From Verrucomicrobiota bacterium (GTDB lineage Bacteria; Verrucomicrobiota; Verrucomicrobiia; Limisphaerales; UBA9464): a stretch of DNA of 64,000 nt. The DNA lies in NCBI GenBank assembly GCA_017309115.1, contig JAFLEF010000031.1:1-64000 (forward strand). Reading direction: 5' to 3'. The translations under genes and the position numbers were made by a program. How positions within the stretch are numbered: position 1 is the first letter of the stretch; each line of letters opens with the position of its first letter. The notes under the pieces were generated by a model, which was not told where the DNA came from, did no database searches, and saw only the letters and a program-made list of their open reading frames with translations. Below, one piece after another: positions 9,607 to 56,308 of the stretch.

Positions 9607-10315
9607 GCTGAGAGCTGAGAGCTGAGAGGTCGGAAGGGGGAAGATGGGTAGGGCGAGGCTCCGTCGAGCCGTGCGCGTCTTGGCGAAATGAGGCGTCGGG
9701 AGTCCACACACGGACGGCTCCGCGGAGCGTCGCCCCACCGGGGGGTAGGGATGGACCGCTGGGCCGTCCCCGGTTGGCCAGCGCAGCTCGGCCGACCGGC
9801 GATTGCTGGTCAGCGCTGGAACGATGTGACATGTCACCTTCTCGAAACGGGGAAGGGTTTCCCGCGGAGGGCACGGAGAGGAAGAAGCCGGTAAGCGCGA
9901 AGCGGTAAGCGGTAAGGTAGGGCGAGGCTCCGCCGAGCCGCGCGCGTCTCGGCGAAATTAGGCGTCAGGAGTCCACAAACGAACGGCTCCGCGGAGCGTC
10001 GCCCCACCGGGGGTAGGGATGGACCGCTGGGCCGTCCCCGGTGGCCCAGCGCAGCTCGGCCGACCGGAAATTGCTGGTCAGCGCTGGAAAGATGTGACGT
10101 GTCACCTTCTCGAAACGGGGAAGGGTTTCCCGCGGAGGGCGCGGAGGCCGCGGAGAGGGAAAAGCGGGTAAGCGGTAAGCGGTAAGGTAGGGCGAGGCTC
10201 CGCCGAGCCGTGCGCGTCTCGGCGAAATGAGGCGTCAGGAGTCCACAAACGAACGGCTCCGCGGAGCGTCGCCCCACCGGTTTTTTCTCTCTGCTCTCAG
10301 CTCTCAGCTCTCAGC
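9607..10315. repeat. 270-bp tandem repeat (2.4 copies) enclosed by 22-bp inverted repeats
   Basis: Units begin at 9647, 9916 and 10186 (periods 269 and 270), each starting GGTAGGGCGAGGCT; the third is truncated near 10280. Each unit contains a long imperfect palindrome whose arms read GGTAGGGCGAGGCTCCG and CGGAGCGTCGCCCCACC. The block is bracketed by perfect inverted 22-mers, built from three GCTGAGA-type repeats, at 9607-9628 and 10294-10315. No ORF inside looks genuine. It accounts for nearly all of the 940-bp gap between the pseudopilin gene and the next gene. Confidence 0.85.
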
Positions 10316-10394
10316 TTTTCCCAGAAGCAACTGCGTTCTGCTCGTTAAATCTGGCGATTCCCGGAAGCGGGCGGATCATGGCTAACGTGCCGGC

Positions 10395-16051: not shown

Positions 16052-17143
16052 TCAAGGTTGGAACGGCAGCGCCACCACCTGTGCGGGAGAGTCCCCATCT
16101 GGCAAGCGCACCAGCAATTCCGTGCCCAAGGCGTTGGATTCCTTACGCACATAACCCAGGGCCAAGTTGGCCCCGAGGCTGGAGGAATGTCGGGCACTGG
16201 TGAGGTAACCCACCTCGCGTCCGTCGCGGAACAGCTTGGTCCCTTTTTCCGGAAGCTTCGGCAGTGCCGCAGATAGGCGCAGACCGCGCAGGGCCTTCAC
16301 CACCTGACCGTAGGTTCGGATTCGCGCGATGGTTTCCTGACCGGTGTAGCAGCCCTTCGAGTAGCTGATGGCGTCCCGATCGAGGCCGGCTTCGGGCGGC
16401 AGGTTCGTTTCGTCCATGTCCACCGGGAATCTGGGAATGCCCGCTTCGAAGCGAGCTTGGTCCAGCGCGTGGAAGCCGGCGAGACGTCCTCCTTCGTCAC
16501 GGGCGGCGGCGGACAGCTTGTCAATCACGGCGCCCAACGCGTCGGTGGGGATGAACACATCAAAACCCGGGAAGCCCGCCCTGGGCTGGTTCATCAGGTA
16601 CAGGTCGCCTAGCGTCGGATCGGAGATGGACGCAAAGCGTCGTCGTTCGGTGGGCAATTCCGGGAACAGTTCGAGCCGACGAATTACTTCGGCGGAACGC
16701 GGACCTTGGATGGTCAGCAGACCGTAGTACGGCCGGACATCCACTACCTGGACATCCTCGGCGACGATATGGTGTTCCAGACGTTGGATCAGGGCGGTGC
16801 TCAGGCCGGGTTCGAAATCCAGCAGCAGTTCCTCGCGAAGCGCAAAAATGTTCACGTCGGCGACCAGGCGTCCCTTGGGCGAACAGAACGCGGCGGCGCA
16901 GCCTTGGCCTGGGCCGAGACCTTTGACGTCGTTGGTCACCTGTCCGTTGAGCAAGCGGACTCGGTCGGCGCCGGTGAGGCAGAGCCGACCTCGGAATCCG
17001 AGATCCACCACGGCTGCAGTTGTGCGGACGGCCTGATATTCGAGTTCGGGCTGACCGTAGTCGGTGATCAGTTCTTCCCCGCTGAGGCTTCCGAACTGTC
17101 CTCCCAGCGCGGCATGAACTTCGTGTAACGCAAGCGGCACCAT
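16052..17143 (-). CDS. ygfZ: Folate-binding protein YgfZ (GcvT-like iron-sulfur maintenance protein)
   Basis: A 363-aa cytoplasmic GcvT-fold protein. The YgfZ signature KGCYTGQE is at residues 263-270 with the conserved Cys at 265, which separates it from true aminomethyltransferases. The tetrahydrofolate-binding domain begins near residue 40 (DLGFRGRLCLTGADRVRLLNGQVTNDV pattern) and the C-terminal barrel ends at about 355. The family supports repair and assembly of certain Fe-S enzymes in a folate-dependent way. It starts with ATG just inside the REP-rich intergenic region. No other Fe-S biogenesis genes are nearby. Confidence 0.92.
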   Translation of the reverse strand: MVPLALHEVHAALGGQFGSLSGEELITDYGQPELEYQAVRTTAAVVDLGFRGRLCLTGADRVRLLNGQVTNDVKGLGPGQGCAAAFCSPKGRLVADVNIFALREELLLDFEPGLSTALIQRLEHHIVAEDVQVVDVRPYYGLLTIQGPRSAEVIRRLELFPELPTERRRFASISDPTLGDLYLMNQPRAGFPGFDVFIPTDALGAVIDKLSAAARDEGGRLAGFHALDQARFEAGIPRFPVDMDETNLPPEAGLDRDAISYSKGCYTGQETIARIRTYGQVVKALRGLRLSAALPKLPEKGTKLFRDGREVGYLTSARHSSSLGANLALGYVRKESNALGTELLVRLPDGDSPAQVVALPFQP

Positions 17144-17197
17144 GCGGCGTCACCGTAGAGCGGAGTGGCCCGAGTGACGAGCGACGAATCGAAGGAG

Positions 17198-17475
17198 TAG
17201 CCGCGGAGGGAACGACGCGCTGACTGGATTGCCCTGGGGCGTGAGAGCGGGTGGGGCGGCGGGTGTGCTGGGGGAGGATGGCGCCTCCTGCCGTCGGCGG
17301 CTACGTAGCCGCGGAGGGGACGACGCGCTGACTGGATTGCTCTGGGGCGTGGGAGCGGGTGGAGCGGTGGGTGTGCTGGGGGGAAGATGGCGCCTCCTGC
17401 CGTCGGCGGCTACGTAGCCGCGGAGGGGACGACGCGCTGACGGGATTGCCCTGGGGCGTGGGAGCGGGCGCGCGG
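17198..17475. repeat. REP-type palindromic array, left part (2.6 units of ~108 bp)
   Basis: Direct repeats start at 17198, 17306 and 17415 (periods 108 and 109), each beginning TAGCCGCGGAGGG and ending GGCGGCTACG. Unit junctions create a perfect 16-bp palindrome GCGGCTACGTAGCCGC (17297-17312 and 17406-17421). The third unit is cut off just before the stop of the transposase at 17479. The repeats fill the gap between ygfZ and the transposase. Confidence 0.9.
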
Positions 17476-17478
17476 CAG

Positions 17479-18117
17479 TTACTCCATCGTTCTGGGGGGC
17501 AGTTTTCGTTTTCCCAATCCGTCTTCCCGAAGAGCGACGTACCGCTCCCAAAACCAAGGCCAATAAGACGGTCCGAAGGGATCGACGTTAAAGTAGCCGG
17601 GAATCACTGCGCCGACGTAGCGCCATTCGTGGGGTGTCTGCGCAAGACCTGCTCGCCAGGGGTTGAGCAAAATGTACTCGGAACAGGCGTCCATGAAGGG
17701 GCCGCGTCGTCGCTCCTTCTCGGTGAGCACATGATCGTGGGCTTGGTGTTGCCAATGATGGGGTTCCAATAGGGGCGCCATCCGAGTCCGAAGCCAAGTC
17801 ATGGCCTCACGTTGATCGGTTTGCGTCCGGAGCCCCATCCAGACCAAATGCGCATGATCAGGCATCAAACAATAGGCTGGACAAATCAAGCCCTGCCGGG
17901 CGGATGCGTGAAGCATGAGTTCGCGGAAGGAACCGTGGACTGAATCCGTGAGCCAGCCTTGTCCCCGGCGCGCAATCGGCAACGTCCAGAAAATGACTGC
18001 ATCGTCTTGGTAAAATTCTCGTCTGAGGCGGGGCAGATAATGCGAAAAAGATGACCGATCCTCCGGCCTTTTTGGGGAACCCATAGTTGACCCAACGTGC
18101 CGTAGTCGATCCATCAA
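17479..18117 (-). CDS. REP-associated tyrosine transposase (RAYT, Y1/HUH family)
   Basis: A 212-aa single-strand DNA transposase of the TnpA-REP group. The HUH metal-binding motif is MPDHAHLVW (H88, H90), and the catalytic tyrosine is Y148 in EYILLNPWRAGL, a signature of RAYTs. RAYTs are domesticated IS200/IS605-like enzymes thought to cut and mobilise REP hairpins, and here the gene sits between two arrays of REP-like palindromic repeats. All motifs are intact, so it may be active. The start is ATG (MMDRLRH). The C-terminal ~40 residues (FGPSYWPWFWERYVALREDG) are basic and aromatic. Confidence 0.93.
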   Translation of the reverse strand: MMDRLRHVGSTMGSPKRPEDRSSFSHYLPRLRREFYQDDAVIFWTLPIARRGQGWLTDSVHGSFRELMLHASARQGLICPAYCLMPDHAHLVWMGLRTQTDQREAMTWLRTRMAPLLEPHHWQHQAHDHVLTEKERRRGPFMDACSEYILLNPWRAGLAQTPHEWRYVGAVIPGYFNVDPFGPSYWPWFWERYVALREDGLGKRKLPPRTME

Positions 18118-18137
18118 CGGATAGATGCTAAATGTCA

Positions 18138-18490
18138 GTAGCCGCGGAGGGGACGACGCGCTGACTGGATTGCCGTGGGGCGTGGGAGCGGGTGAGGCGG
18201 CGGGTGCGCTGGGGGGAAGATGGCGCCTTCTGCCGTCGTCGGCTACGTAGCCGCGGAGGGGACGACGCGCTGACTGGATTGCCGTGGGGCGTGGGAGCGG
18301 GCGGGGCGGCGGGTGTGCTGGGGGGAAGATGGCGCCTTCTGCCGTCGTCGGCTACGTAGCCGCGGAGGGGACGACGCGCTGACTGGATTGCCCTGGGGCG
18401 TGGGAGCGGGCGGAGCGGTGGGTGTGCTGGGGGAAGATGGCGCCTTCTGCCGTCGGCGGCTACATAGCCGCGGAGGGAACGACGCGCTGC
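18138..18490. repeat. REP-type palindromic array, right part (3.2 units of ~109 bp)
   Basis: Units begin at 18138, 18248, 18357 and 18465 (periods 110, 109 and 108) in the same orientation as the left array. The last unit stops after about 25 bp. Junction palindromes vary slightly (CGGCTACGTAGCCG is kept, and a TACATAGCC variant occurs at 18461-18469). This array begins 20 bp beyond the transposase start codon and ends about 70 bp before the polX start. Confidence 0.9.
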
Positions 18491-18557
18491 GTTTTCCCGC
18501 CCAGCCGCCCGCTCCTGGCTCGCTCCCGGAGGGCTCCGTGGTTAGGCTGTCCGTCCC

Positions 18558-20306
18558 ATGGATAAAGATCAGGTCGCCGCCGTGTTGGTGGAGATTGGTA
18601 CGTTGCTCGAATTGAAGGGGGAAAACCCCTTCAAGACCCGGGCTTACCAAAACGCGGCGCGCACGTTGGAAGGGCTTTCCGAACCCTTGGAAAAAATCGT
18701 GGCCGAGGATCGCCTCAAGGGCATGAAGGGCATCGGCGAGGCACTCCAGGAAAAGATCACCACCCTCGTCACCACCGGTCGGCTGCCGTACTACGAAGAT
18801 CTGAAGGCGTCCCTGCCGCCCGGCCTCGTGGATCTGCTGGGTCTGCAAGGCGTGGGACCGAAGAAGGTGAAGAAGCTGTATCAGGAACTGGGTATCGATT
18901 CCCTGGCCTCGTTGGAAGCCGCCTGCCGCGCCGGAAAAATCGCCGACCTGGAGGGCTTTGGGGAGAAATCGCAGGCCAAGATTTTGGAGGCGATCGCCTT
19001 TCGGCAGAAGTTCGCTTCGCACCATCGGTTGGTCGATGCCCTCGAGGCCGCGGAACCGATTCTGGCCGCGTTGCGCGAACATCCGGACGTCACCCGCTGT
19101 TCCGCCGCTGGTAGTCTGCGGCGTTGGAAGGAGGTCATCGGCGACATTGATTTCGTGGTCTCCTCCCGCCAGCCCGCGCCGGTCCTCCAGTTCTTTGTGC
19201 AGCAACCCGGCATCGCCAGCGTGCTTGCCCAGGGGGACACCAAGGCCAGCGTGCTGCTGGAATCCGGCATCCAGGCCGATCTGCGTGTCGTGAGCGACGT
19301 CGAGTATCCGTATGCTCTGGCCTACTTCACGGGTTCCAAGGAGCACAACATCGTGATGCGCCAGCGCGCTATTGCCCGGGGACTTCGCCTGAACGAGTAC
19401 GGACTCTTCCGCAGTGCTGAGGAAACCCGGGATCCCGCCCTGCGCATCGCCTGTCAGGACGAGGCGGATCTTTACCGGGAACTGGGACTGGATTACGTCC
19501 CGCCCGAACTGCGCGAAGACCGCGGGGAATTCGTCGCCGCCGAGCAGCACCAGTTGCCGCGCTTGATCGAATGGACGTCTCTGAAGGGTTCCCTGCACAA
19601 CCACTCCGATTGGTCCGACGGTCGCAACACCCTGTCGGATATCGCGGACCATGCGGTGGAACATGGCTTGGCGTACTGGGCGATCACTGATCATTCCAAG
19701 GCCAGTTTTCAGGCGCAAGGTCTCGACGCCGAGCGCCTTCGTCAGCAGTTGGTGGCCGTGCGGGAGGTGAACCAGAAGCTCGCCGATTCCGGAACCGACT
19801 TCCGTCTCCTGAGTGGCTCGGAAGTCGACATCCTCAAGGACGGCCTCGACTTCAATGATGACCTGCTCGCCGAACTCGAAGTCGTGGTGGCCAGTCTGCA
19901 TGTTCCCTCCAGTGATGAGGCGGAAAACACCAAACGCCTGATCCGGGCCGCCGAAAATCCGTTTGTCCACATGCTGGGGCATCTCAGTGGACGACTGTTG
20001 CTGGAGCGCGATGCCTACAAGGTCAACCAAACAGCGGTCATTGATGCCTGCGCGGCGACCGGCACCTGGATTGAACTGAACGCTTCGCCCTATCGCTTCG
20101 ATCTCGATTGGCGGCTGTGGCAGTACGCCCGTTCGAAGGGAGTTCGCTGCGTGATCAACTGCGATGCCCACCGTTTGGACCACTTCGCTTGGCTTCGATT
20201 GGGCGCCGGGGTGGCGCGCAAAGGTTGGCTCCAAGCCAGCGACGTTATTAACACGCAGTCCCTCGCCACCCTGCGAAAATCACTGGCCACAAAACGTTCC
20301 GCTTGA
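18558..20306 (+). CDS. polX: DNA polymerase X with C-terminal PHP domain
   Basis: A 582-aa bacterial/archaeal-type PolX, a gap-filling repair polymerase with 3'-5' exonuclease/AP endonuclease activity from its PHP domain. The helix-hairpin-helix 8-kDa and fingers region spans about 1-160 (GMKGIG and GLQGVGPKKVKKL). The polymerase palm has GS at 185-186 with metal Asps D196 and D198 (GDIDFVV) and D241 (ADLRVV). The PHP domain from about 343 shows HNHSDWSDG (H347, H349), ITDHS, GSEVDIL, ASLHV and a final NCDAH. All metal ligands look present. It is the full family length. The Xre/RES pair starts 32 bp downstream. Confidence 0.95.
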   Translation: MDKDQVAAVLVEIGTLLELKGENPFKTRAYQNAARTLEGLSEPLEKIVAEDRLKGMKGIGEALQEKITTLVTTGRLPYYEDLKASLPPGLVDLLGLQGVGPKKVKKLYQELGIDSLASLEAACRAGKIADLEGFGEKSQAKILEAIAFRQKFASHHRLVDALEAAEPILAALREHPDVTRCSAAGSLRRWKEVIGDIDFVVSSRQPAPVLQFFVQQPGIASVLAQGDTKASVLLESGIQADLRVVSDVEYPYALAYFTGSKEHNIVMRQRAIARGLRLNEYGLFRSAEETRDPALRIACQDEADLYRELGLDYVPPELREDRGEFVAAEQHQLPRLIEWTSLKGSLHNHSDWSDGRNTLSDIADHAVEHGLAYWAITDHSKASFQAQGLDAERLRQQLVAVREVNQKLADSGTDFRLLSGSEVDILKDGLDFNDDLLAELEVVVASLHVPSSDEAENTKRLIRAAENPFVHMLGHLSGRLLLERDAYKVNQTAVIDACAATGTWIELNASPYRFDLDWRLWQYARSKGVRCVINCDAHRLDHFAWLRLGAGVARKGWLQASDVINTQSLATLRKSLATKRSA

Positions 20307-33230: not shown

Positions 33231-33475
33231 GCTGAGAGCTGAGAGGTCGGAGCGAACGACGGGTAGGGCGACGCTCTGCGGAGCCGTACGTGTGTGTGGT
33301 CTACACGCGTGATTCGCCGAGTCGCTTTCGTCTATGGAGTGCGGCCGCCCATGCTAGCCCATGCTGCCGCTTTGCCATTTTTCCCAGACGTGGGTGGAGG
33401 AGGGATGCGTAGGGAGTCCACCAGGGAACGGCACCGCGGAGCGTCGTCCTACCCCCCTTACCCCTTACCCCTTAC
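33231..33475. repeat. Degenerate relative of the 9.6-10.3 kb repeat, palindromic
   Basis: The 339-bp gap before the tRNA starts with the same CTGAGAGCTGAGAGGTCGG sequence as the 9607 element. It then has inverted arms at 33262-33287 and 33428-33453 that match at 23 of 26 positions. A CCCCTTACCCCTTACC run follows. No gene is visible between 33226 and the tRNA. Confidence 0.7.
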
Positions 33476-46737: not shown

Positions 46738-46888
46738 CACTCGCCGGGACGAAAAGCGGTAGCTTCACTGCGTTGCGCGACCGCACTCCAAACGCTTCGC
46801 GTGAAACCGGCCCGGGCGAACTTCAGGGGCGAAGGGAAAAGTGACGCGTGGGGGATTGGATGGCGCCTTCTGCCGTCGGCGGCTACGG
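46738..46888 (+). repeat. Composite direct repeat, copy 2
   Basis: Best-preserved copy: CACTCGCCGGGACGAAAAG at the left end, GCGTGAAACCGGCCCGGGC in the middle, and GGCGCCTTCTGCCG then GGCGGCTACGG at the right end. The right end is the REP-unit terminus seen around the RAYT gene. The rest of the gap 46644-47278 holds no gene. Confidence 0.85.
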
Positions 46889-47109
46889 GGCGGATGGAGT
46901 CGTGACGCGGCAGTTGCAGCTAGAGCGTTGCCCATGGGAGAGCGGTAGAAGGTCTTCCGCAATCTCCAGAGGAAAGCGCCCTCTCCCCGTCTTTTTCCTG
47001 TTTTCCTGCGTTCCAAATTCATCTCCCTCTGCGCCCTCCGCAGGAGATTCTCGGGCGCCTTTCTTCGGCGCGTTGAGGGCGGGTGAGGGTGTTGGGTGTT
47101 TCGAGGCGT

Positions 47110-47261
47110 CACTCGCCGGGACGAAAAGCGGTAGCTCCACTGCGTTACGCGACCGCACTCCAAACGCTTCGCGTGAAACTGGCACGGTCCGAACTCCACG
47201 GTCGAAAGGCCAGGTGACGCGTGGGGGATTGGATGGCGCCTTCTGCCGGCGGCGGCTACGG
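47110..47261 (+). repeat. Composite direct repeat, copy 3
   Basis: Same order of elements as copy 2, 372 bp further on, ending GGCGGCGGCTACGG 18 bp before the GTG start of the ABC ATPase gene. The promoter of that gene must lie in or beyond repeat sequence. Confidence 0.85.
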
Positions 47262-56224: not shown

Positions 56225-56308
56225 TAGCGGAGGGAACGACGCGCTGACTGGATTGGCCCGAGGCGTGAGAGCGGGGAGAATGGCGCCTCCGGCCGCCGCT
56301 GGCTACGG
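56225..56308. repeat. Single shortened REP unit overlapping a gene end
   Basis: The sequence runs from TAGCGGAGGGAACGACGCGC to CCGCTGGCTACGG, the order seen in the 17-18 kb array but lacking its internal GTGGGGCGGCGGGTGTGCTGG-like part. Its CTA at 56303-56305 is the TAG stop of the minus-strand pseudopilin gene. Confidence 0.8.

Follow-up and report, generated by a model that had tools for sequence, protein, structure and literature searches.

A probable REPIN/RAYT system with tandem repeat arrays in a verrucomicrobial bacterium of the order Limisphaerales

Results

The window analysed here is a stretch of 64,000 nucleotides (positions 1 to 64,000 of the forward strand of contig JAFLEF010000031.1, assembly GCA_017309115.1) from a Verrucomicrobiota bacterium (Limisphaerales; UBA9464), in which a gene for a REP-associated tyrosine transposase (RAYT) lies within an array of repetitive extragenic palindromic (REP) sequences. 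The gene, on the minus strand at 17479-18117, is an intact reading frame of 212 aa with a TTG start, alignable from about residue 26. It is flanked by two tandem arrays of period 109, one at 17197-17468 (2.5 copies, 94% match) and one at 18138-18489 (3.2 copies, 95% match; Tandem Repeats Finder). An earlier note, made from the sequence of this stretch alone, had given 3.2 units on one side, as found here, and 2.6 on the other, with coordinates off by one base; it had rightly placed all units in the same orientation, as the unit's first 36 bases match the window six times at up to 3 mismatches, always on the plus strand, and 100 shuffles gave no match. Each unit consists of two imperfect hairpins headed by GTAG and inverted with GTAG outward, which is the anatomy of a REP doublet forming hairpins (REPIN). 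An unusually long single REP was considered as the identity of the unit and rejected, the unit being a REP pair. The features of the locus are as follows.

17197..17304, plus strand: REPIN unit 1 (108 bp), B-type GTAG REP on the left, inverted A-type REP on the right
17305..17413, plus strand: REPIN unit 2 (109 bp)
17414..17468, plus strand: half REPIN, unit positions 1-55 of 109
17479..18117, minus strand: RAYT, HUH/Tyr transposase of TnpA-REP type, 212 aa
18138..18246, plus strand: REPIN unit 4 (109 bp)
18247..18355, plus strand: REPIN unit 5 (109 bp), 97% identity to unit 4
18356..18463, plus strand: REPIN unit 6 (108 bp)
18464..18489, plus strand: lone REP, ATAG variant, terminus of the array

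The half unit breaks off at unit position 55, leaving 10 bp to the RAYT stop codon, and the array block beyond the RAYT start resumes at unit position 1, 20 bp from that start. Because the unit starts with GTAGCCGC and ends with its reverse complement, or nearly so, and because units abut, a 16-mer palindrome, GCGGCTACGTAGCCGC, is created at the junctions; the claim that it is perfect holds at two of the five junctions, the other three carrying one mismatch each (chance mean 0.04). REP-A is GTAGCCGCCGACGGCAGGAGGCGC and REP-B is GTAGCCGCCGAGGGGACGAGGCGC, with the B variant GTAGCCGCGGAGGGGACGACGCGC used in the array. As read from these sequences, the REP may leave base 5 unpaired and fold bases 6-12 onto bases 17-23 around a GNNA loop, with two G.A mismatches in tandem (10/19 and 11/18). 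Pair 12-17 is swapped between A and B REPs and pair 9-20 is swapped in the array variant; among 47 distinct REPs of this genome, pair 12-17 is G-C in 23 and C-G in 21, and pair 9-20 is C-G in 35 and G-C in 6, so that each REP stem is maintained by two-sided changes.

The identification of the gene as a RAYT accompanied by its REPs in a verrucomicrobial lineage, already proposed from the sequence, is upheld. The frame is intact; its match to the NCBIfam model NF047646 (REP_Tyr_transpos) has E 3.8e-14, and the 52.8 bits of this match lie below the model cut-off of 80; one of 14 control genomes contained a match above that cut-off. Used as a single sequence, the protein had no Pfam match at 1e-3 and no PHROGs or PDB match, and a first contig scan queried with it found no relative. 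A profile of 27 aligned sequences, throughout which H88 and H90 (the HUH motif), Y148 and N152 are invariant, had Escherichia coli TnpA-REP as its sole match in the PDB. The predicted structure likewise has the TnpA-REP fold, the match to 4er8 standing well above all others when VIA-align was run on Foldseek matches. Identity over the structural alignment is 16%. In the profile alignment, Q95, E100 and H101 of E. coli TnpA-REP align with Q123, D128 and H129 of the window RAYT; R104 lies opposite T132.

The repeat is dispersed in the genome, as had been proposed. Absence of the unit elsewhere, named beforehand as the result that would speak against this, is not what was found: a 21-base REP pattern has 106 exact matches in the 7.53-Mb assembly, and the reversed pattern has none. 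From 100 listed pattern places, 60 stretches were retrieved, and these 60 loci contain 154 REPs, 36 of them outside any doublet, and 59 doublets of 105-118 bp, of which 31 measure exactly 107 bp and 57 pair one A with one B end. Tandem arrays of the window's family also occur on contigs C65, C69, C36, C30 and C16 (contigs, genomes and loci are cited by C, G and L numbers), none of which has a match to the RAYT model. Unit identity is 90-97% inside the C69, C36 and C16 arrays and 54-79% between arrays with different cores; the C65 array has its core in common with the window array, with 87-97% identity to the window's full units. The three more distant sites reported in the window as single units all belong to the family; two are single REPs and the third is a shortened doublet.

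46859..46886, minus strand: single A-type REP of the array's family
47232..47259, minus strand: single A-type REP of the array's family
56225..56306, plus strand: shortened REPIN (82 bp), left half similar to the core of the array, at 88% across unit positions 7-55

The association between REPs and RAYT genes was followed through 83 relatives of the RAYT, the best 80 of which were kept; these loci are of common ancestry and so are not independent. Their recorded taxa are verrucomicrobial in 71 cases (Limisphaerales, Pedosphaera, subdivision 3 and others), only 'bacterium' in three, and in the other six Lentisphaerae (2), Planctomycetaceae, Pirellulaceae, Armatimonadetes and Bryobacteraceae. 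A strict REP motif was defined after inspection of the flanks of the first loci, where it occurs at 27 of 30 RAYT loci and at one of 30 polX loci, that one being the window itself; 50 further loci were held out. Among the latter the motif is present in the flanks of 44 (shuffled flanks, 0.04 loci), and on both sides in 33 of the 43 whose flanks measure 200 bp or more. Over the best 80 of the 83 relatives it is found in the flanks of 72, and the window gene has REPs on both sides. When GTAG was counted with the stem not a precondition, unlike in the strict motif, it headed a stem with at least 6 of its 7 pairs formed in 123 of 228 cases near RAYTs, as against 9 of 425 at polX loci and 2 of 43 inside the genes. 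REP type (bases 5-6) requires 6 changes on the RAYT tree, compared with 28.8 after shuffling (60 labelled rows). No orientation rule emerged for the REPs nearest the gene, the four pairings numbering 16, 15, 15 and 13 among the 59 relatives whose gene is flanked by REPs on each side.

A further observation concerns RAYT residue 124 (window 17746-17748, minus strand), which directly follows the conserved Q, is H or P, and covaries with REP base 5. Across 66 loci, H goes with C in 34 and P with G in 19, the other 13 falling outside these combinations. E. coli TnpA-REP has P at the aligned position, and the E. coli REP has G at the base corresponding to base 5. After correction for phylogeny the covariation is not significant, with one independent pair on supported branches and four on all branches, and residue 124 scored higher with REP base 8 than with base 5; as a lead on recognition it is suggestive.

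The genome contains further RAYT systems. NF047646 matches the window gene and RAYTs on C38, C33 and C97, each of the latter lying beside or within a tandem array of its own repeat; exact patterns for the C33 and C97 families have 139 and 76 matches, and their reversed controls none. The C33 family, hereafter the second family, is found at two places in the window.

9647-10280 region: second-family (C33 RAYT type) tandem array, 268 bp, 2.4 copies; exact REPs of that family lie at 9916 and 10186
33262-33285: exact second-family REP

Three longer RAYT-like frames of 368-403 aa (G000:C50:5327; C22:58018-58563; C33:12563-13108; L035-L039) have a split or partial NF047646 match, which suggests an inserted or extra domain; at the three scanned (L035-L037) no first-family REPs lie nearby.

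Sequence of the second family is frequently found beside REPINs of the window's, or first, family. It occurs within the spacers of the first-family arrays on C36, C16 and C30, and a copy lies within 30 bp of 31 of 59 first-family REPINs, at 23 of 44 sites (BLAST, E<=1e-3); random segments from these loci at a distance of more than 300 bp, a control not matched for intergenic position, gave 0.10%. The gap is at most 12 bp in 42 of 47 adjacent instances, and one orientation accounts for 36 of the 47, or for 29 of 37 when each locus and side is counted once. At L160 and L185, two of six joined cases chosen, the flanks, once joined, match positions 1-96 and 1-98 of a second-family unit over the junction, with gaps; nearly the full second-family unit is thus restored, and the first family is therefore nested inside the second. 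The reverse arrangement was not seen, since none of 40 second-family loci, retrieved independently of the first family, has a first-family REP within 150 bp, in a set that omitted sites overlapping first-family loci. Exact patterns on C1-C56 show the adjacency weakly (7 of 47 first-family and 7 of 74 second-family sites within 250 bp), since the majority of second-family neighbours deviate from the exact pattern. The REP loci of the seven relatives examined had no second-family match. By eye, two stretches of about 160 bp in the window, 46740-46900 and 47100-47260, resemble each other, and a single first-family REP terminates each; they hold sequence akin to that flanking the C38 RAYT (L031 1292-1363), which may make this a further mixed-family site.

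Discussion

Taken as a whole, the locus is very probably a REPIN/RAYT system: its anatomy, its dispersal, the association of REP structure with RAYT clade, the intact catalytic residues and the predicted TnpA-REP fold are what the analysis shows. Such a system is known in kind, and is here extended to the Limisphaerales/Pedosphaera-type Verrucomicrobiota, in a phylum where GTAG repeats have been described already. In the model that we favour, the RAYT would act on single strands as an HUH/Y1 endonuclease, recognising GTAG together with the adjoining short hairpin, that is, the REP. The REPIN, two inverted REPs about 107 bp apart, would be a non-autonomous unit copied around the genome through the cutting and rejoining of DNA in single-stranded form, with the lagging strand as the probable place, as may be reasoned from E. 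coli TnpA-REP and IS200/IS605. The array beside the gene would have grown later, probably as similar units duplicated locally through slippage or unequal exchange, and the RAYT and a half REPIN would have been trapped between two array blocks.

Several results weigh against this model. Movement of the REPINs was not observed; it is inferred, as are cleavage, the mode of array growth and spread by this RAYT rather than by a lost relative. Folding the unit, a check proposed in the earlier note, gave no support for a hairpin in the two units tested from the window, with z -1.19 and 0.05, in contrast to one dispersed REPIN copy (z -2.68); single REPs of the window gave z 0.07 and -0.56, and the best fold predicted for REP-A differs from the proposed stem. 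Tandem G.A pairs are perhaps undervalued by the folding energy model. Local duplication is only partly borne out, as window units 4 and 5 are mutually closest (97%), which partly fits it, while C65 units are as close to window units 2 and 6 (97%) as any neighbour is. The tracking of the RAYT tree by REP type is an association and not recognition, because the gene and its flanking REPs are inherited together, and simple co-inheritance may explain it. Within the supported RAYT clade of eight rows, the stems of the seven relatives are fully paired and the REPs of the window genome carry G.A mismatches. Finally, some genomes of the family have pattern matches, and no RAYT of the window's clade was found in them. 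G241, of the same genus and 93% complete, has 42 pattern matches, both REPs of the one locus read being of the window type with the GGCGC end, and protein and profile searches found no RAYT of the window's clade in it, where draft gaps could hide one. G180, G246 and G248 have 47, 35 and 16 matches and no close RAYT in the protein search. The earlier note had held that identical repeats in genomes lacking any RAYT would tell against the association; that situation was not encountered to the letter, since G241 has eight match rows to the general RAYT model, and it is touched upon by this genome all the same. The four of these RAYT-model loci that were scanned (L075, L082, L088, L095) have no first-family REP.

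An alternative is that a different RAYT, since lost, spread the REPINs, and that the window RAYT inserted into, or simply lives beside, an existing array. We consider this unlikely; in its favour are the window-type REPs retained by G241 and the fully paired REPs that go with the RAYT's nearest relatives. It may also draw on G250 and G081, whose RAYTs, on another branch, go with G.A-mismatch GTAGCCGCC REPs; the gene-adjacent REPs of these two genomes, however, have a GCGG end and GT.A loops, whereas the GCGC end is common to the REPs of the window genome and the top REPs of all seven clade relatives, and a GCGC-ended REP in G191, of the same family as the window, has a GGAA loop also. Moreover, the array abuts the RAYT gene on both sides. 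Also on the side of the alternative, the five REPs read from G180, G246 and G248 combine the window's GG.A loop with the GGCGG end seen in G250; as they are not GGCGC-ended, they may belong to another population. G180 has a distant RAYT (28% identity) without such REPs. Counting copies against RAYT presence, a check that the earlier note had also proposed, yields weak tables, because the 21-base pattern is specific for one sequence type and merges two end types: among 245 genomes of the order the RAYT protein (E<=1e-5) is found in 64, the pattern in 12 and both in 7, and among 51 genomes of the family the RAYT (E<=1e-20) is found in 8, the pattern in 6 and both in 2. RAYTs may be hidden between repeats in draft assemblies; loci are cut by a contig end in 10 of 29 RAYT cases and 4 of 29 polX cases, a difference that is not significant (Fisher p 0.12).

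An insertion sequence of the IS200/IS605 type, with terminal hairpins that are repeated incidentally, is very improbable: the genome has one match to the window protein at E<=1e-5 against 106 exact REP matches, no mobile gene-bearing copies with defined ends were found in it, the dispersed unit is without the gene, and fold and profile favour TnpA-REP. That the array is a minisatellite or a structural repeat with no relation to the transposase, the gene being there by chance, could be argued from units that fold no better than shuffled sequence and from tandem arrays on contigs without a RAYT-model match, but the probability of this is close to negligible given that all four genome RAYTs examined adjoin or sit within an array of their own repeat and that most of the relatives carry the motif in their flanks.

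The REPIN/RAYT system thus favoured has much in common with that of Pseudomonas fluorescens SBW25, for which the available text of Bertels and Rainey (2011, PMC3116915) describes inverted REP doublets, the next-neighbour distances of which peak at 71 and 110 bp. REPINs there also form tandem clusters, each of three RAYTs is accompanied by one REPIN type, and five regions combine two unrelated REPINs, an arrangement ascribed to the insertion of REPINs into, or beside, others already present. Given such 110-bp doublets and clusters, and given that each unit here is itself a REP pair, the earlier contrast between unusually long units and the short REP pairs of other bacteria does not hold. Unlike what that text reports for SBW25, the window units follow one another without a spacer and lie to either side of the gene, two-family adjacency reaches 23 of 44 sites, the phylum is a different one and the REP sequence differs. 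The available part of Di Nocera et al. (2013, PMC3733652) describes GTAG-tagged stem-loops, head-head dimers, clusters with flanking DNA and repeat-specific REPtrons, reports that O. terrae (Verrucomicrobia) is highly enriched in GTAG repeats, and notes unpaired GA residues in one P. aeruginosa family; within that part, neither the Limisphaerales/Pedosphaera lineage (0 occurrences of Pedosphaera) nor a 7-bp stem that is shared across a clade and has tandem G.A and a GNNA loop appears. Among the papers listed in a literature search that left most subscription journals outside its coverage, none dealt with REPs in Pedosphaera-type bacteria. PMC6006769 and PMC8266576 treat the classes of TnpA and the way in which REPs are recognised, and the accessible text of the latter (groups 2/3) gives an unpaired stem or loop position as the feature recognised by TnpA-REP, loop G13 in the S. 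maltophilia member; in this feature, as in HUH/Tyr core and fold, the window system resembles E. coli TnpA-REP (PDB 4er8). The REPIN/RAYT association now reaches a verrucomicrobial order of which most members are uncultured and in which the REP structure is clear and covaries, and the 72 RAYT-REP pairs make recognition readable from coevolution.

The oriented two-family adjacency, which is far commoner than expected, is the lead most worth follow-up. We put forward tentatively, and as somewhat doubtful, that REPINs of one RAYT system take the REPINs of another as preferred, oriented landing sites, giving rise to two-family mosaic arrays; it is possible instead that both families share a preference for the same intergenic spots, or that ready-made composites have spread. 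If true, a landing preference would bear on how REP families pick their sites and on how mosaic arrays like bacterial interspersed mosaic elements (BIMEs) arise, matters left unsettled in the literature as far as its text was available.

Two observations on the surroundings may be added. In the window, polX and ygfZ are divergent (16052-20306), with the REPIN/RAYT array between them, and in G241 (L124) they are head-to-tail neighbours; because of this difference in order, the array may mark a rearrangement breakpoint. A search for an empty site at the RAYT locus found ygfZ within the 1.5-kb flanks of only one of the 29 other polX loci of the family, that of G241, with its different order. Lastly, a 7-base tandem repeat, AGCTGAG/CTCTCAG, adjoins REPIN arrays of different families, as at the following sites.

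Window, 10287-10316: AGCTGAG/CTCTCAG 7-base repeat
L031, 1107-1136: the same repeat
L032, 922-951: the same repeat
L147 and L170, flanks: the same repeat
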